This document shows, piece by piece, positions 25,711-35,323 of a stretch of 64,000 bases of DNA. Positions within the stretch are counted from its first letter, which is position 1; each line of letters opens with the position of its first letter. The notes beneath the pieces were generated by a model. It saw only the letters and a program-made list of their open reading frames with translations. It was not told the origin of the DNA and made no database searches. The DNA is from Oscillospiraceae bacterium (GTDB lineage Bacteria > Bacillota > Clostridia > Oscillospirales > QAMX01): positions 72,653 to 136,652 of the forward strand of contig SVLW01000001.1 of assembly GCA_015067705.1 (NCBI GenBank), given 5' to 3'. Made by a program: the position numbers and the translations under genes.

Positions 25711-25848
25711 TATATGCGACGGCATTCTTCTTGTCAAGTATCAATTTCCACCAGAATGCATCCATTATCCCGCGCATTCTTGCGCTTTTCATAAAAGCAT
25801 ATTATAATAAGAACCAGATTCCCATTCTTTCAAATGCGAGGAACCATC

Positions 25849-26976
25849 ATGGCAAAAGTCAGTATTACCCCCTGTGCAGTCTATGAACCCGAAGAAGTGC
25901 GTCGGGCGCTGATCGCGGCGCTCTCACCTCTTGGCGGGCTTTCTTTTATCAAACCCGGGATGCGCATCGGCATCAAAATGAATCTCATCACCCTGAAGCA
26001 ATACCAGTCCGCCGCCACCACTCACCCCGTTGTGCTTGCGGAGCTTTCCCGGTTGATCCGGGAGCAGGGCGCCACGCCGGTGATCGGCGACAGTCCCGGC
26101 GGCCCCTTTACGGGAGCCTTCCTGCGTTCCTGCTATGGCCCCACCGGTCTGAAACTGGCGGAGGAGGCGGGTGCAGAGCTGAACCTCAATACAGAGGTGA
26201 GCGAGGCGGCATTCCCGGAGGGAAAGGTGCTGAAGCGCGTTACGCACACGGCGTGGCTGGATGACTGCGACGCAGTGATCACCTGTGCCAAGCTGAAAAC
26301 CCACGGAATGCTGGGCATGACGGGCGCCACGAAGAACCAGTTCGGTATCATCCCGGGACTTATGAAGCCGGAATACCACTCCCTTTACCCGGAAGTGCAG
26401 GATTTCTGCGATATGCTCATCGACCTGAACGAATACCTGAAGCCCCGTCTCGCCATCATTGACGGCGTCATTTGCATGGAGGGCAACGGCCCCACCGCAG
26501 GTACGCCCCGGGAGATCGGCTGTCTCATTGCCTCGGACTCCGTCTATCATGCGGATGTGGCCATGGCGCACATCATGGGGCTCTCCCCCGCCTCCATGCC
26601 GCTGATCCATGCGGCGTATCTGCGGGGCCTTGCACCGGAGCGCGTGGAGGAACTGGAGATTGTGGGAGACCCGGAAAAATACCGCATGACAGATTTCCGG
26701 AATATCGAGATCCACGGCGTGCAGTTCGGCGGCCGTCGGGACAGCGTACTGCAGCAGCTGGTAAATCAGGTACTGGCCCGGCATCCGCAGGTGGACGCGA
26801 AAAAGTGTGTCAACTGCGGCATCTGTGCCCGCACCTGCCCTAAGGACGCCATTACCATCCGTCGCAAACCGAAATTCAACCTGCAGGCCTGCATTCGCTG
26901 CTTCTGCTGTCAGGAGATGTGCCCCAAGGAGGCGATTTCCGTCAAAACAACCTGGGTGTCAAAACTGCTGAAATAA
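25849..26976 (+). CDS. DUF362 domain / 2x[4Fe-4S] ferredoxin protein
   Basis: MAKVSITPCAVYEPEEVRRAL...CVNCGICARTCPKDAI...CIRCFCCQEMCPKEAI. Confidence 0.88.
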   Translation: MAKVSITPCAVYEPEEVRRALIAALSPLGGLSFIKPGMRIGIKMNLITLKQYQSAATTHPVVLAELSRLIREQGATPVIGDSPGGPFTGAFLRSCYGPTGLKLAEEAGAELNLNTEVSEAAFPEGKVLKRVTHTAWLDDCDAVITCAKLKTHGMLGMTGATKNQFGIIPGLMKPEYHSLYPEVQDFCDMLIDLNEYLKPRLAIIDGVICMEGNGPTAGTPREIGCLIASDSVYHADVAMAHIMGLSPASMPLIHAAYLRGLAPERVEELEIVGDPEKYRMTDFRNIEIHGVQFGGRRDSVLQQLVNQVLARHPQVDAKKCVNCGICARTCPKDAITIRRKPKFNLQACIRCFCCQEMCPKEAISVKTTWVSKLLK

Positions 26977-26983
26977 GACGCAA

Positions 26984-27017
26984 AAAGCCCCTGAAGCATA
27001 TGCTTCAGGAGCTTTTT
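26984..27017. terminator. Intrinsic terminator (convergent)
   Basis: AAAGCCCCTGAAGCATATGCTTCAGGAGCTTTTTTT. Confidence 0.8.
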
Positions 27018-27032
27018 TTAGTAGATTATGAC

Positions 27033-28775
27033 TTAATAAATCTTTCTCTCCACATAAGTGGTGTGCAGCAGCTCGTGAGCCTTGTGGCTGCCGGGCTGGC
27101 CGAGGAAGGTGTCATAGATCTCCTTGACAACGGGATTCTCATGGCTCTTACGCAGAGTCATAGCAGCATCCTCGCTATAGAGAGCCTTTGCACGCTCAGC
27201 ACGCACGTCAACAAAGTTACGGACATAGCCGGGAACATCAGGCTGACCACCACCGTTGACACAGCCGCCGGGGCAGCCCATGACCTCGATGAAGTGGTAG
27301 TTCTTCTCGCCGGACTTGACGCTGTCCAGAAGCTTTGCAGCATTGGCCAGGCCGGAGGTAACAGCAACGTTCACTTCCATGCCGCCGATGTTGTAGGTAG
27401 CTTCCTTGATGTCCTTGGTGCCGCGAACCTCGGTGTAATCCACGGAGGGAGCGGTCTCACCGGTGACGACTTCATAAACCGTACGCAGAGCAGCCTCCAT
27501 AACGCCGCCGGTGGCGCCGAAGATGTGGCCTGCACCGGATGCAACGCCGAATGCCGGGTCAAACTCTTCGTCCGGGAGAGCGGTGAACTGCAGACCGGCG
27601 CGCTTGATCATGCTGGCCAGCTCGACAGTGGTGATGGAAACATCGATATCGGCATAACCGGAAGCATTCTGGTTGTCACGGCCGATCTCGAACTTCTTTG
27701 CGGTACAGGGCATGACGGACACAACGAAGATATCCTTAGGATCAATGCCGGCCTTCTCGGCATAGTAGGTCTTCATGAGAGCGCCGTACATCTGCTGCGG
27801 GGACTTGCAGGAGGAGATGTTCGGAATGAACTCCGGATAATAGGTCTCGGCAAAGCGGACCCAACCGGGGGAGCAGGAGGTGATCAGAGGCAGCTGACCG
27901 CCGTTCTTGATGCGCTCCAGAAGCTCGGTGCCTTCTTCCATGATGGTGACGTCAGCAGCGGTGTCCACATCAAAGACCTTGTCAAAGCCCAGGCGGCGGA
28001 GAGCAGCAACCATCTTGCCTTCCACGTTGGTGCCCATGGGCATGCCGAAGCACTCACCCAGCTGTGCACGGACGGAAGGAGCGGGACCGACGACCACATG
28101 CTTGGTCGGGTCAGCCAGAGCGTCCCAAACCTTAGCGGTATCATCCTTGGGAGTCAGAGCGCCAACCGGGCAAACGGTGATGCACTGGCCGCAGTTGATA
28201 CAAGCGGTCTCGTTGAGGCCCATCTCAAAGGCGGAGCCGATATGGGTCTTGAAGCCACGCTCGTTCGCGCCGATGACGCCAACAAACTGGCTCTTTGCGC
28301 AGACAGCCTCGCAGCGACGGCAGAGGATGCACTTGGAATTATCACGGATCAGGTGCGGAGCGGAGGTATCCAGTTCCACCGGGATGTCGCGGCCGTTGCC
28401 GTACTTGTACTGGTCAACGCCATACTCGTTGGCGAGGGTGGCCAGTTCGCAGTTGCCGTTACGCGGGCAGGACAGGCAGTCCATGCGGTGGTTGGAAAGG
28501 ATCAGCTCCAGAGTGGTCTTTCTTGCCTTACGCAGGGCGGGCGTGTTGGTGAACACTTCCATACCGTTGGTGACAGGATAGACACAGGCAGCGGCCAGAG
28601 CGCGGGCGCCCTTGACCTCAACAAGGCACATACGGCAGGCGCCGATGGCGTTGATTTCCTTCATGTAGCAGAGAGTCGGAATGCGAATTCCGAGCTTATG
28701 AGCGGCTTCCAGAATCGTAGAACCAGCAGGAACCTCGACTTCCAGGCCGTTGATTTTCAGCTGAACGGTATCCAT
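27033..28775 (-). CDS. hydA: [FeFe] hydrogenase catalytic subunit (HydA of HydABC type)
   Basis: N-terminal 2Fe-2S and 4Fe-4S domains; L1 TSCSPGW, L2 MPCTAKKFE, L3 EVMGCPGGCVNGGGQ. Confidence 0.94.
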   Translation of the reverse strand: MDTVQLKINGLEVEVPAGSTILEAAHKLGIRIPTLCYMKEINAIGACRMCLVEVKGARALAAACVYPVTNGMEVFTNTPALRKARKTTLELILSNHRMDCLSCPRNGNCELATLANEYGVDQYKYGNGRDIPVELDTSAPHLIRDNSKCILCRRCEAVCAKSQFVGVIGANERGFKTHIGSAFEMGLNETACINCGQCITVCPVGALTPKDDTAKVWDALADPTKHVVVGPAPSVRAQLGECFGMPMGTNVEGKMVAALRRLGFDKVFDVDTAADVTIMEEGTELLERIKNGGQLPLITSCSPGWVRFAETYYPEFIPNISSCKSPQQMYGALMKTYYAEKAGIDPKDIFVVSVMPCTAKKFEIGRDNQNASGYADIDVSITTVELASMIKRAGLQFTALPDEEFDPAFGVASGAGHIFGATGGVMEAALRTVYEVVTGETAPSVDYTEVRGTKDIKEATYNIGGMEVNVAVTSGLANAAKLLDSVKSGEKNYHFIEVMGCPGGCVNGGGQPDVPGYVRNFVDVRAERAKALYSEDAAMTLRKSHENPVVKEIYDTFLGQPGSHKAHELLHTTYVERKIY

Positions 28776-28789
28776 TTGTGTGGGCCTCC

Positions 28790-30595
28790 TTACTTCTTGT
28801 AAATTGCGTCGAACTTACACTTCTCGATACAAGCGCCGCACTTGATGCACTTCAGGGTATCGATGACGTGGGGTTCTCTGACCTTACCGGAAATAGCACC
28901 GGCCGGGCAGACACGGGCGCAGGCGGTGCAGCCGCGGCACTTGTCCGGATCGATGACATACTTCAGCAGGCTCTTACAGACGCCGGCCGGGCAGGTCTTA
29001 TCAACAACGTGAGCAATATACTCATCGCGGAAATACTTCAGAGTGGACAGAACGGGGTTCGGAGCAGTCTGGCCAAGGCCGCACAGGGAGTTGGTCTTGA
29101 CGTGGTTGCACAGATCCTCCAGAGTGTCGATATCCTCAAGAGTACCCTTACCCTCGGTGATCTTCTCCAGCATCTCATAGATACGCTTGGTGCCGATACG
29201 GCAGGGAGCGCACTTACCGCAGGACTCTTCCACGGTGAACTCCAGGAAGAACTTTGCGATGTCGACCATACAGTCGGTCTCGTCCATAACGATCAGACCG
29301 CCGGAACCAACGATGGAGCCGATGGCTGCCATGCTTTCATAGTCCAGGGGAGTGTCGATGAGGGAAGCCGGGATGCAGCCGCCGGAAGGACCGCCGGTCT
29401 GAGCAGCCTTGAACTTCTTGCCGCCGGGGATACCGCCGCCGATCTCTTCGATGACCTGGCGCAGGGGCATACCCATGGGAACCTCAACGAGGCCGGTGTT
29501 GGTGATCTTGCCGCCCAGTGCGAAGACCTTGGTGCCCTTGGACTTTTCAGTACCCATGGAGGCAAACCAGTCAGCGCCGTTTAAGAGGATCTGGGGGATG
29601 TTTGCATAAGTTTCGACGTTATTCAAAAGAGAGGGCTTGCCGAAGAGACCCTTCTCAGCGGGGAACGGAGGACGGGGACGCGGCTCACCGCGGTTGCCCT
29701 CGATGGAGGTCATCAGAGCAGTCTCTTCGCCGCAGACGAATGCGCCGGCGCCGAGACGCAGGTCGATGTCAAACTTAAAGCCGGTGCCGAGGATGTCGTC
29801 GCCCAGGAGGCCGTACTCACGAGCCTGATTGATGGCGATTCTCAGACGCTGAACAGCGATGGGGTACTCAGCACGGACATAGATGTAGCCCTGGGTAGCA
29901 CCGACGGTGTAACCGGCGATGGTCATAGCCTCGAGGACTGCATGGGGGTCGCCTTCCAGGATGGAACGATCCATGAATGCGCCGGGGTCGCCTTCGTCGG
30001 CGTTACAGGCAACATACTTCTGGTCGTCATGATAACCCATGGCGAACTTCCACTTCAGACCGGTGGGGAAGCCTGCGCCGCCGCGGCCGCGGAGGCCGGA
30101 AGCCAGCAGGGTGTCCACGATCTGGGCGGGCTCGGTCTTTTCGGTGAGGATCTTGGCCAGAGCCATATAACCGTCACGGGCGATATACTCGTCGATGACT
30201 TCGGGGTTGATGACACCGCAGTTACGCAGTGCAACACGCTTCTGGGAACGATAGAAGTTGGTGTCGTTCAGAGAAGAAGCAACATGCTCCTCAACGACTT
30301 CCTTGCCGGCGCCGTCATTATAGACCAGACGCTCAACAACACGGCCCTTCAGCAGGTGCTCTTCCACGATTTCGGTAACGTCCTCGTCGGTAACACGGCT
30401 ATAGAAGGTGCCTTCCGGATAAACGATCATAATGGGACCGAGAGCGCAGAGACCGAAACAACCGGTCTGAACAACCTTAATTTCCTCTGCGAGGCCCTTT
30501 GCTTCCAGTTCTTTTTCGAGGTGGGCTCTGATGTTCTGGCTGCCGGAAGAAGTACAGCCGGTACCACCGCAAATCAATACATGCGAACGAATCAT
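28790..30595 (-). CDS. hydB: NuoF-like hydrogenase subunit (HydB)
   Basis: GLRGRGGAGFPTGLKW...CNADEGDPGAFMDRSI...ESCGKCAPCRIGTKR; C-terminal 2x[4Fe-4S]. Confidence 0.94.
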   Translation of the reverse strand: MIRSHVLICGGTGCTSSGSQNIRAHLEKELEAKGLAEEIKVVQTGCFGLCALGPIMIVYPEGTFYSRVTDEDVTEIVEEHLLKGRVVERLVYNDGAGKEVVEEHVASSLNDTNFYRSQKRVALRNCGVINPEVIDEYIARDGYMALAKILTEKTEPAQIVDTLLASGLRGRGGAGFPTGLKWKFAMGYHDDQKYVACNADEGDPGAFMDRSILEGDPHAVLEAMTIAGYTVGATQGYIYVRAEYPIAVQRLRIAINQAREYGLLGDDILGTGFKFDIDLRLGAGAFVCGEETALMTSIEGNRGEPRPRPPFPAEKGLFGKPSLLNNVETYANIPQILLNGADWFASMGTEKSKGTKVFALGGKITNTGLVEVPMGMPLRQVIEEIGGGIPGGKKFKAAQTGGPSGGCIPASLIDTPLDYESMAAIGSIVGSGGLIVMDETDCMVDIAKFFLEFTVEESCGKCAPCRIGTKRIYEMLEKITEGKGTLEDIDTLEDLCNHVKTNSLCGLGQTAPNPVLSTLKYFRDEYIAHVVDKTCPAGVCKSLLKYVIDPDKCRGCTACARVCPAGAISGKVREPHVIDTLKCIKCGACIEKCKFDAIYKK

Positions 30596-30613: not shown

Positions 30614-30985
30614 TTAGTTCTGAGCAGCGCCGATGGTGTACTCGGTCACGACCTTACCGTTCTTGATGTGCTCTTCAACAACACGGCGGGCCTTGTCGGC
30701 GGTCATCTTGACATAGGTGACCTTTTCCTTGCCTGCTTCGAAGATCTCCACAACGGGCTCATACTGGCAGATGCCGATGCAGCCGGTCTGGGTGACAGTA
30801 GCCTTATCGCCGAGGCCCTGATTGCTGACTTCCTCAACGAAAGCGCTCAGCACAGGACGAGCGCCTGCTGCGATACCGCAGGTTGCCATACCGACAACAA
30901 CACGCATACCGGACATACCCTCGCGCAGGGAGACCTTGTCCTTCATGCTGTCACGGATTGCCTGGAGTTCCGCTAAAGTTTTCAT
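30614..30985 (-). CDS. Thioredoxin-like [2Fe-2S] ferredoxin protein
   Basis: MKTLAELQAIRDSMKDKVSLREG..RVVVGMATCGIAAGA...TQTGCIGICQYEP. Confidence 0.88.
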   Translation of the reverse strand: MKTLAELQAIRDSMKDKVSLREGMSGMRVVVGMATCGIAAGARPVLSAFVEEVSNQGLGDKATVTQTGCIGICQYEPVVEIFEAGKEKVTYVKMTADKARRVVEEHIKNGKVVTEYTIGAAQN

Positions 30986-31012: not shown

Positions 31013-31552
31013 TTAGGTTTCATTGGTAAACGGTTCATTCAAAGACTCCGTCACCCACATGAGCACCTCGGGGGTGTCCAGGGGGACGTCGCCCAGGATC
31101 TCACGCATCTCGATGGTTGAGAGGAACTTCTCCCCCGCCGCAGTTCGGTATGTAAAGACGAAGTCAATCTCCGGGCTGCCCTGGATCAGGGCGGCCATGG
31201 TACTGGCCACATCTCCCACCGGCACACAGTCCAGATGATCGATCCGGAAAGTGGCCGTCACGGTGGTGCCGTGTCCCTCGCCCTGCTGGGAGCGGATGGT
31301 CATGTCGCCCTCGGCCTGCTCTGCGGCAAGCTTTAATAGCGGCAGACCCATGCCCACGGGGCGGGTCGTGCGGGTGGTGGTAAACGGATCGGTCACCCGG
31401 GAAAGAAACTCGGGACTCATGCCGCAGCCATCGTCCGCGATCGTCAGGGTTCTCACACCGTTTTCCTCGATAATGGAGATATCGATCCGCGTCGCCTCTG
31501 CTTTCACAGAGTTCTTCGCGATATCGAGAATATTCAGCGACAATTCCTTCAT
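31013..31552 (-). CDS. Histidine-kinase-like ATPase (HATPase) without HisKA or sensor domain
   Basis: LNILDIAKNSVKAEATRIDISI..TIADDGCGMSPEFL..GMGLPLLKLAAEQAEGDMTIRS. Confidence 0.85.
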   Translation of the reverse strand: MKELSLNILDIAKNSVKAEATRIDISIIEENGVRTLTIADDGCGMSPEFLSRVTDPFTTTRTTRPVGMGLPLLKLAAEQAEGDMTIRSQQGEGHGTTVTATFRIDHLDCVPVGDVASTMAALIQGSPEIDFVFTYRTAAGEKFLSTIEMREILGDVPLDTPEVLMWVTESLNEPFTNET

Positions 31553-32286
31553 GTCGTTTCTCCCCGCAGCCATGCGATCAGCGACTGGCGCACCTTTGCG
31601 CTGGAATAGGGTTCGTCGTCCAGTTCCAGGGTGTGCTCCCCCTCCTGGATGGTCCAGAGATTGTGGGAGTCCGACGAACAGACGAAGTGACGGCCGGAGA
31701 GGCCGTATTTCTCCGTATATGCCTCGCGGTTTGCCCCGTCCCGCAGCTCAACCGCCGAAAAGAGCGGCTCCTCCGGCATGGAACCCAGGATGGCAATGAT
31801 GCCATTGGAGTCCCGGTCGATATGGGCGGGATAGGCCGCGCCGCCATAGCGCAGCACCAGCTGGTAAGCATCCTCAAGCGGAAGATCGGTGGCCGAGATC
31901 AGAAGGATCTCTTCTTCTCCCAGCACGTCATCCTGCTCGTTTACAAAGAATTGATTGCCGAAAACCTCCGGTTTGTTTCGGATGGGCATGAGATGTGCCC
32001 GCACTTCCTGATTAAAAGCCATCGCAGACTCTAAATCCGGGAAGAGGCAAACCATATGGATTTCTTCGGCAGTGGTCAGCTCCATGCCGGGCACCGGCAC
32101 AATTCCATACTGACGGCAGGCCGTCATAAAGGCGGGACAGTTGCCGCAGGAATTATGATCGGTAAGGGCAAGAAGCTGGAGGCCATTGAGTGAGGCCATG
32201 CCTGCGATATTGGCAGGCGTCATATCGTCATCCGCACAGGGCGAAAGACAGGAATGGATATGCAGATCGTACGCATAGCGCGTCAT
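31549..32286 (-). CDS. PHP-domain metallophosphoesterase
   Basis: MTRYAYDLHIHSCLSPCADDDMTPANIAGMASLNGLQLLALTDHNSCGNC. Confidence 0.88.
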   Translation of the reverse strand: MTRYAYDLHIHSCLSPCADDDMTPANIAGMASLNGLQLLALTDHNSCGNCPAFMTACRQYGIVPVPGMELTTAEEIHMVCLFPDLESAMAFNQEVRAHLMPIRNKPEVFGNQFFVNEQDDVLGEEEILLISATDLPLEDAYQLVLRYGGAAYPAHIDRDSNGIIAILGSMPEEPLFSAVELRDGANREAYTEKYGLSGRHFVCSSDSHNLWTIQEGEHTLELDDEPYSSAKVRQSLIAWLRGETT

Positions 32287-32609
32287 AGGATCGCCGCGAT
32301 CTTTCCGCTGAGCCGGAAGGAATCCAGCTCGCTGCCGTAAAGATTGATGCCGCGCGCCTTTGCCGCCGCGATCACGTCCTCCTCCGGCATCACGCCCTCG
32401 GACAGCACGATCACTGCCGTATCGGCCAGAGTGGCCACCGCGACGATGTTGGAGTTGGTCATAATGGTCACCCAGGCGTCGCCCGCCTGTGCACGGCCCA
32501 TGACCCAGGAAAGCAGGTCGCCGGTATAGCCGCCCGTGACCTCACGGTCCGGTTCGGCCTCTACGATCGGCGTGAGAGAGAGCCGTTCTGCCAGTTCTTT
32601 TACTGTCAT
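32283..32609 (-). CDS. DRTGG-domain-like protein
   Basis: MTVKELAERLSLTPIVEAEPDREVTGGYTGDLLSWVMGRA. Confidence 0.75.
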   Translation of the reverse strand: MTVKELAERLSLTPIVEAEPDREVTGGYTGDLLSWVMGRAQAGDAWVTIMTNSNIVAVATLADTAVIVLSEGVMPEEDVIAAAKARGINLYGSELDSFRLSGKIAAIL

Positions 32610-33904
32610 TTGCCTTCCTCCCCTTGCTTTTCCCAGATGGCGCGCAGTCTTTCACGCATATAGACCACGCATTCCTCGATCTTGCATTCTCCCTTGACGA
32701 CATCCTCGGCAAAGGCCCGACATGTGGGCGCGCCGCAGGAGCCGCAATCTATTTCAGGAAGCAGTTCATATACTTTTTCGATATCCGACATCATCTGCAT
32801 GGCGATGCCGCGGTTGGCGTTCAGCCGCATGGCAGGGGCATAGGTGATGGGGGAATCGAGCTGCATATGATCCGGTACATAATCGTCCGGCTCATCATTT
32901 TTTTCCAGTCGGTTCTGTGAAATCGGCAGATACCGGCGGAGGGTCTGCAGTCGGACCCGGGCGATATAGGGATTTTCCACCGTCGCGGCGCCGCCAACAC
33001 AGCCGCCGGGACAGGCGTTCAGCTCTACAAACTCCAGATACGGGAAATTACCCGTCTCGATCTCGTCGAGCACCTTAATCGCATTATCAATGCCGTCAGC
33101 CGCAAGATACCGGTCGTTGAAGAGCGCCGAGGATTCGCCGCCGGAGCTGGCCCAGCTGATACCAATGGTACCGGAGGTGCTGGTGATCTCGGGGTTCTCC
33201 ACCGCCTTCATGGCGCCGATCAGCTTGAAATACATCTCGCTCATGGACACCACATAGTCAATGCTGCTGGCATTCTGGGAAATACCGTTTTTGACATAGC
33301 TGGCCTTCGCGGGGCACGGAGAGATGAACACCGTGCAGATTTCATCCGGCGAAAGCTCCGGGTGGGCCTTTTGTGCATTTTCCTTTGCCATGCGGCTGGC
33401 CACTTCAACAGGGGGCAGGATCGGCATGACATTATCACAGAGATACGGGAAACGCAGGCGGATCAGTCGGACAATCGTGGGACAGGCGGAACTGATGACC
33501 GGGCGCTGGACGTCCTTTTTGCGCATATAGCGGCGCGTATACTCGGATACGATTTCCGCTGCGCGGGAGACCTCAAACACCTCATCGAATCCGCATTCCA
33601 GAAGTCCCTGCAGGACATAATCCAGATCGTCCAGATTCTCGAACTGACCGTATAAAGACGGCGCGGGCAGCGCGATCTTCCACTTATATTTCGGCGCTAT
33701 GTCTTCCAGTTTATCGAATATCGCTTTTTTTGCCTTGTGCGGGCAAACACGAATGCATTCACCACAATCGATACAGATCTCCGAATTGATTACGGCTCTG
33801 CCGTCGCGGATTCGGATGGCTTCCGTAGGACAGTGTTTGAGGCACATCGTACAGCCTTTGCACTTCTCAGGTTCCAGCGATACCGAGTGCTTATAGACAG
33901 CCAT
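32606..33904 (-). CDS. [FeFe]-hydrogenase-like protein (large-subunit C-terminal domain) with N-terminal ferredoxin and C-terminal FeS domains; candidate sensor
   Basis: N-term CKGCTMCLKHCP, CIDCGECIRVCP; SSACPT, ISPCPAKASY, NACPGGCVGG; C-term EIDCGSCGAPTCRAFAEDVV. Confidence 0.88.
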   Translation of the reverse strand: MAVYKHSVSLEPEKCKGCTMCLKHCPTEAIRIRDGRAVINSEICIDCGECIRVCPHKAKKAIFDKLEDIAPKYKWKIALPAPSLYGQFENLDDLDYVLQGLLECGFDEVFEVSRAAEIVSEYTRRYMRKKDVQRPVISSACPTIVRLIRLRFPYLCDNVMPILPPVEVASRMAKENAQKAHPELSPDEICTVFISPCPAKASYVKNGISQNASSIDYVVSMSEMYFKLIGAMKAVENPEITSTSGTIGISWASSGGESSALFNDRYLAADGIDNAIKVLDEIETGNFPYLEFVELNACPGGCVGGAATVENPYIARVRLQTLRRYLPISQNRLEKNDEPDDYVPDHMQLDSPITYAPAMRLNANRGIAMQMMSDIEKVYELLPEIDCGSCGAPTCRAFAEDVVKGECKIEECVVYMRERLRAIWEKQGEEGK

Positions 33905-34344: not shown

Positions 34345-34689
34345 TTATTCCCCCCCAGACAGATGATTCACATACAGTCTGCCGCAGGCCTCGTACATAC
34401 GGACCTTGGTAGAGAGCAGAACGATGTGATTTTCTTCCGCCAGTTCGATCATTTCGGGAGTGGGATTCTTTCCGCGCACGAAAACGATGCAGCGCATATC
34501 CACCATCATGGCGGTACGCACGACCTGAGGATTGACAAGACCGGTCAAAAGTGCGGTCTGATCCTTGACAAATGCCAGCACATCGCTCATCATATCGCTG
34601 CCGCAGGCATTGGCCACAACCGTGTCGAGTGCATCTTCGCAGCAGAGCACTTCTGCTTCCAGAAGCTCGGCAACATCGCGAATGGTCAT
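34345..34689 (-). CDS. DRTGG-domain-like protein
   Basis: MTIRDVAELLEAEVLCCEDALDTVVANACGSDMMSDVLAFV. Confidence 0.75.
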   Translation of the reverse strand: MTIRDVAELLEAEVLCCEDALDTVVANACGSDMMSDVLAFVKDQTALLTGLVNPQVVRTAMMVDMRCIVFVRGKNPTPEMIELAEENHIVLLSTKVRMYEACGRLYVNHLSGGE

Positions 34690-34722: not shown

Positions 34723-35217
34723 TTAGTTATACTTTTCGAGAATACCTGCGACGTCATCCGGACCGATACGGCCGTAAACGTCCTCGTTGATCATCATAAC
34801 AGGAGCCAGACCGCAGGCACCAACGCAGCGGCAGGAATCCAGAGAGAACTTACCGTCGGGAGTGCAGCCGCCCTCGCCGATGCCCAGAATCTCGGACAGC
34901 TTGTCAAACAGCTGGCGGGAACCCTTGACGTAGCAGGCAGTACCCAGGCAGACGGAGATGCGGTACTTACCCTTGGGCTGGAGGGTGAACTGTGCATAGA
35001 AGGTGGCAACGCCGTAAATCTTTTCCATGGGGATGCCGGTGCCTTCGGCGATCATGGTCTGGACTTCAATCGGCAGATAGCCATAGATTTCCTGCGCCTT
35101 CTGCAGAATGGGCATCAGAGCGCCCTGCTGATCCTTGTGCGCAGCAATAAAGTCGAGAAGCTGCTGCTTCTGCTCTTCAGTACCGGCGAACGGCACTGAT
35201 GCGATTACTTTTGCCAT
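34723..35217 (-). CDS. hydC: NuoE-like hydrogenase subunit (HydC)
   Basis: VCLGTACYVKGSRQLFDKLSEIL...SLDSCRCVGACGLAPVMMINEDVYGRI. Confidence 0.93.
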   Translation of the reverse strand: MAKVIASVPFAGTEEQKQQLLDFIAAHKDQQGALMPILQKAQEIYGYLPIEVQTMIAEGTGIPMEKIYGVATFYAQFTLQPKGKYRISVCLGTACYVKGSRQLFDKLSEILGIGEGGCTPDGKFSLDSCRCVGACGLAPVMMINEDVYGRIGPDDVAGILEKYN

Positions 35218-35294: not shown

Positions 35295-35323
35295 ATTATA
35301 GCACATCTTTTCCAAACTGGAAA
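35295..35323 (-). promoter_or_regulatory. Putative hyd operon promoter with TTTCCAGTTTGGAAA palindrome
   Basis: TATAAT (minus, 35300-35295) 17 nt from TTTCCA; perfect TTTCC/GGAAA inverted repeat 35309-35323. Confidence 0.5.

Follow-up and report, generated by a model that had tools for sequence, protein, structure and literature searches.

HydS, a 432-aa protein encoded in the window (the whole stretch of DNA that was analysed, 64,000 nucleotides), can be assigned firmly from its sequence to group D (M2e, TamHydS-type), the putative sensory [FeFe]-hydrogenases. We consider it likely that this putative sensor belongs to a ten-gene operon with an electron-bifurcating-type HydABC and signals via a five-gene cassette. 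The cassette and an apparent gap in the maturases of the genome are the parts that go beyond known group D traits and are worth following.

The hydS gene is the fourth of ten tightly spaced minus-strand genes, which are given below from hydC to hydA together with the sites flanking them.

35295-35323, minus strand: promoter-like site upstream of hydC, TTTCCA-17-TATAAT with TG ahead of the second hexamer (consensus match only)
34723-35217, minus strand: hydC, NuoE-like 2Fe-2S thioredoxin
34345-34689, minus strand: DRTGG1, DRTGG-domain protein, 114 aa
33915-34340, minus strand: HATPase1, GHKL ATPase of the SpoIIAB/RsbW kind, 141 aa
32606-33904, minus strand: hydS, group D [FeFe]-hydrogenase, 432 aa, H-domain at residues 77-306
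33482-33487, minus strand: codons of A140 and C141 in hydS (L1 ISSACP), computed from residue numbering; Ala at the CpI C299 site, Cys at the CpI C300 site
32283-32609, minus strand: DRTGG2, second DRTGG-like protein, 108 aa (weak Pfam match, below the cut-off)
31549-32286, minus strand: PHP phosphoesterase-like protein, 245 aa
31013-31573, minus strand: HATPase2, histidine-kinase-like ATPase, 186 aa, accompanying hydABC
30614-30985, minus strand: small NuoE-like 2Fe-2S ferredoxin
28790-30595, minus strand: hydB, NuoF-like diaphorase
27033-28775, minus strand: hydA, group A6 NADH-dependent hydrogenase (NF040763, 897.8 bits against a cut-off of 765)
26982-27017, minus strand: terminator-like hairpin directly after hydA, 16 pairs with a T-rich arm (consensus match only)

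Rfam gave no match at the gathering score in the operon region. Across the terminator-like hairpin, a convergent plus-strand gene (25834-26976 of the window) encodes a product that looks DUF362-like by eye and bears two 4Fe-4S motifs at its C-terminus. The L1 motif of the operon HydA reads TSCSPGW, placing Ser at CpI C300, a [4Fe-4S]H ligand position. TSCSP was seen in all 41 HydA proteins adjoining hydS and also in HydA1 of Acetobacterium woodii (7q4v). It was rejected as a mark of maturase loss, since the 41 proteins carry it with or without maturases.

Domain structure and group assignment of HydS

The hydS reading frame begins with ATG, and the plus strand across the same interval is interrupted by stops. 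Pfam identified two N-terminal 4Fe-4S sites, Fe_hyd_lg_C (PF02906, 1.1e-32) and an FeS domain (PF04060, 4.8e-14), and no PAS domain was among the matches. The residues for two N-terminal [4Fe-4S] clusters are C15/18/21/25/44/47/50/54, and those for the C-terminal [4Fe-4S] cluster are C387/390/395/412, in the pattern Cx2Cx4Cx16C (C-terminal sequence EIDCGSCGAPTCRAF), which confirmed the C-terminal FeS domain named in a preliminary description of this DNA. That description had also reported an alanine in L1 with the other motif cysteines kept, and the minus-strand gene indeed reads ISSACPT in L1 (A140, C141), ISPCPAK in L2 (C197) and ELNACPGGC in L3 (C298, C302). None of the four H-cluster ligands is missing, and C141, C197, C298 and C302 were all kept in 37/37 relatives in an alignment. 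The A140 column holds Ala in 36 of the 37 relatives and Lys in one, and a second sample, which overlaps partly with the first, has Ala in 41/41 operons; Ala140 is therefore neither accidental nor a sequencing artefact. A divergent group D member, L032 (genome G056), has Lys replacing Ala (SSKCP), and the L3 motif of locus L047 is EGSSC. An AF2 model of HydS has a mean pLDDT of 82.7, and its best PDB matches are all [FeFe]-hydrogenases (best E 1.2e-19).

Group D is characterized by the lack of PAS together with a C-terminal Cx2Cx4Cx16C cluster, and group C has the same cluster plus PAS (PMC8163306, PMC10407848). In group D another residue, mostly Ala, takes the place of C299; H-cluster binding, slow H2 turnover and CO-tolerant states are further traits of the group. 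The preliminary classification as a HydS-type putative sensory hydrogenase was thus well placed, given the group D traits and the complete set of Cys ligands. It had called the protein unlike HydS for having no PAS; the absence stands but the contrast does not, because this very combination defines group D. HydS is a further member of the group, whose L1 Ala, PAS absence and C-terminal cluster are already published traits.

TamHydS of Thermoanaerobacter mathranii (group D, M2e) was compared via published traits and residue positions. The two proteins share the domain order, the absence of PAS and the Cx2Cx4Cx16C C-terminal cluster (PMC8163306, PMC10407848, PMC13104023, PMC11803613). They also share Ala for C299, Ser for CpI M353 and the Glu252/Glu289/Ser249/Asp265 path, and each gene has genes for a bifurcating hydrogenase and a histidine-kinase-like ATPase in its neighbourhood. 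TamHydS E252, S249 (Ser or Thr in the group), D265 and E289 correspond to HydS E257, S254, D270 and E294, with the numbering shifted by 5 throughout, and E257, D270 and E294 are invariant among the 37 relatives. Nearly every group D trait tested was found in HydS. The exception is the CpI M497 position, where TamHydS has Leu291 and HydS has Asn296 (Asn in 33/37 relatives), but Leu is not known to define the group. The surroundings also differ: for the TamHydS gene only an adjoining ATPase and AraC regulator have been named (PMC8163306), as opposed to the five-gene cassette here, and searches for maturases in the window's genome were negative.

TmHydS of Thermotoga maritima (group C, M2f) resembles HydS in its N-terminal clusters, H-domain, C-terminal cluster, Ala for C299 and an operon shared with another hydrogenase (PMC10055695). 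Unlike HydS, it has PAS, Gly/Ser at the two Met sites (Ser/Asn in HydS) and no E252 equivalent. Group C was ruled out for HydS since no PAS follows the C-terminal cluster. The group A enzymes (CpI, DdHydAB and bifurcating HydA) share the H-domain fold and the H-cluster cysteines, but they differ in having the C299 proton path, two pocket Met residues and a small-subunit domain and in lacking a C-terminal FeS domain. Group A was ruled out by A140 at the relay-Cys site and the lack of the small-subunit domain (PF02256). In the tree, the HydS rows form a single clade separate from groups A and C with support of 100/99, and the group C rows stand apart from it. A first tree that included L064 was discarded, as one extreme branch broke up group D, which became one clade once L064 was left out. 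Group B was ruled out by a score of 136.8 bits for TIGR04105 (FeFe_hydrog_B1) against a cut-off of 450.

Meaning of the L1 alanine

Group A enzymes relay protons through the L1 cysteine and turn over very poorly without it. The relay proposed for group D is E252 of TamHydS, and E252 variants lose H2 oxidation (PMC10407848). TamHydS turns over slowly (0.25 U/mg), and restoring the cysteine does not help: the A137C variant keeps about 10% of H2 evolution and about 25% of H2 oxidation activity (PMC11803613). TmHydS A131C is likewise less active (PMC10055695). Judged by its residues, Ala140 is a normal group D residue and no mark of a broken enzyme, because the group D substitute proton path is intact. 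The poor turnover suggested for this protein in the preliminary description is in line with the slow turnover of its best-studied relative, TamHydS. Ala is an unlikely cause of it, since A137C and A131C lowered activity and a substitute path is present.

The loss of the L1 cysteine, together with the failure to find maturases, could also be read as the decay of a hydrogenase that has lost its function, with Ala as part of the decay. The conservation data largely refute this, and we give it hardly any credence: Ala is family-wide, all cluster ligands are kept and the cassette is invariant. In addition, hydS is under strong purifying selection, with a dN/dS of ~0.06 (dN 0.079, dS 1.29) between the window and locus L034, within a genus lacking the maturases.

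The apparent maturase gap

HydE, HydF and HydG, the maturases that assemble the active site of [FeFe]-hydrogenases, were not found over cut-off by profile searches of the window's genome (G000, 94% complete), so a complete H-cluster in HydS cannot be assumed. The earlier suggestion that the protein could bind an H-cluster keeps the support of its four Cys ligands but is less certain for this reason. The gap matters because a hydG deletion in C. thermocellum abolishes all [FeFe]-hydrogenase activity (PMC4355364). Some acetogens are reported to have lost only HydG (PMC9431212).

Three kinds of candidates in G000 were rejected. The HydG-like match (contig C18) is ThiH instead (510.9 bits, cut-off 380), the HydE-like match (contig C66) reached 169.7 bits and is under the curated cut-off of 254.6, and the best HydF-like matches are GTPases, read from sequence as EngA and MnmE, none of which reaches the cut-off. 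The HydE-like radical SAM protein (G000:C66:30127-31050, L067) lies near an ABC-transporter-permease-like gene and also occurs in G002 and G004.

HydF and HydG over cut-off were also not found in two genus relatives of G000 and in many other genomes. Those without them include G001, G002, G004, G007, G023 and G175, all with hydS and hydABC present, and there was no HydE over cut-off where it was searched for. The sample of the order comprised 346 genomes, of at least 95% completeness except for the window's own, which was included. Group D HydS occurred in 140 of these: 71 with both HydF and HydG, 12 with HydF only and 57 with neither. HydE over cut-off was absent from 24/24 genomes tested from the maturase-negative group (three genomes, each belonging to the same family as the window's, have the sub-cut-off paralogue) and present in 4/4 tested from the maturase-positive group. 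Separately, HydF over cut-off without HydG was noted in 21 genomes, including G036, G050, G087, G099, G110, G163, G193, G195, G206, G211, G269, G305 and G366.

Fragmented genomes were rejected as the cause of the gap. The share without HydF and HydG, by rising contig number, was 4/7, 5/12, 15/40, 22/52 and 11/29, which shows no trend. Maturase absence follows genus, with a pair concordance of 0.72 compared to 0.52 when shuffled, and 1 of 5000 shuffles was as high. G175, which carries hydS and hydABC, is assembled in 3 contigs and is 99% complete; tblastn over ~97% of the genome found no HydE, HydF or HydG and profile searches of the whole assembly found none over cut-off. G191 and G241, which belong to the same genus, carry maturases at a site that one contig of G175 reads through without any.

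The absence of maturases raises the alternative that HydS here holds [4Fe-4S] clusters only, with no [2Fe]H, and senses redox state instead of H2. The negative searches in G000, its genus relatives and many other genomes speak for this, as do the 57 HydS genomes out of 140 with neither HydF nor HydG, almost all of a completeness of 95% or more, and the nearly closed G175 without maturases at the syntenic site. Genomes with only two H-domain genes are also more often without maturases (20/57 compared to 7/71, uncorrected for kinship). However, the pocket and the group D proton path, which are of use only with [2Fe], are equally invariant with or without maturases; the HydA pocket is likewise no less conserved without them, and mean column entropy is 1.27 against 1.21. 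We regard a [4Fe-4S]-only redox sensor as unlikely, and a putative H2 sensor remains the preferred reading.

The gap is a computational finding. It may be explained by unknown maturases, by H-domain proteins used without [2Fe] or by a systematic assembly gap. It is possible, though we hold this tentatively, that much of the order keeps the HydS cassette and HydABC without HydE, HydF and HydG, either obtaining [2Fe] via an unknown route or having H-domain proteins that work without it. A search of the open-licence literature gave no direct precedent for genomes without HydEFG, and precedent elsewhere is possible. Should the gap prove real, organisms that have HydS and HydABC and lack HydEFG would provide a test of alternative H-cluster assembly versus cluster-free action.

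The cassette as a candidate output pathway

The genes DRTGG1-HATPase1-HydS-DRTGG2-PHP were found together and in the same order in 41/41 sampled loci and in 10/10 group D loci of a second, named set. hydABC adjoins the cassette in all 41 loci, on the same strand or divergently, and at the loci with divergent hydABC (L139, L038, L041 and L065) the cassette genes still share one strand and their usual order. HATPase1 has a conserved N box (E49..N53), G1 (DxGPGI) and G2 (GFGAGMGLPN) in the 41 operons. The likely metal-site residues of PHP (H9, H11, D19, H44, E69, H77, H155, D206 and H208) are conserved as well.

Since hydS always adjoins hydABC in the sample, and its N-terminal ferredoxin-like clusters could pass electrons, HydS might be an extra slow catalytic subunit or an electron entry point of HydABC and not a sensor. 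This is quite improbable in light of the unchanged cassette at the four divergent loci and of the accompanying ATPase, DRTGG and PHP genes, which have no electron-transfer role. Work on TamHydS, moreover, has used the isolated enzyme on its own (PMC11803613).

The cassette is instead a candidate output pathway for a sensor lacking PAS. This sensor model builds on what the sequences show: the identity of HydS, its ligands and alternative proton route, purifying selection, and a cassette that does not vary and retains its ATP- and metal-site residues. Protons would travel along E257-E294-S254-D270 in place of the group A cysteine path, and HydS would equilibrate slowly with H2, the presumed signal, and with the pool of low-potential electrons. 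The SpoIIAB/RsbW-like HATPase1, through contact with HydS, and the two DRTGG proteins could then read the altered state or conformation of HydS. Phosphorylation may be involved, with the PHP phosphoesterase as an opposing or resetting enzyme, and the output would adjust the expression or activity of HydABC, its probable target. For TamHydS, H2 sensing is still called putative, and its C-terminal cluster gave no response to H2 (PMC13104023).

Group D enzymes have been studied as putative H2 sensors, for which we found no known output pathway, and the cassette, whose ATPase is of the anti-sigma type, supplies named, deletable candidates. In the open-licence literature, no paper joining DRTGG, a PHP domain and a hydrogenase was found, and precedent elsewhere is possible. 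At L038:1824-15086 and at L065, hydABC, the group D cassette and a group C-like gene (577 aa) lie side by side, and L038 additionally has an H-domain gene of the group B type.
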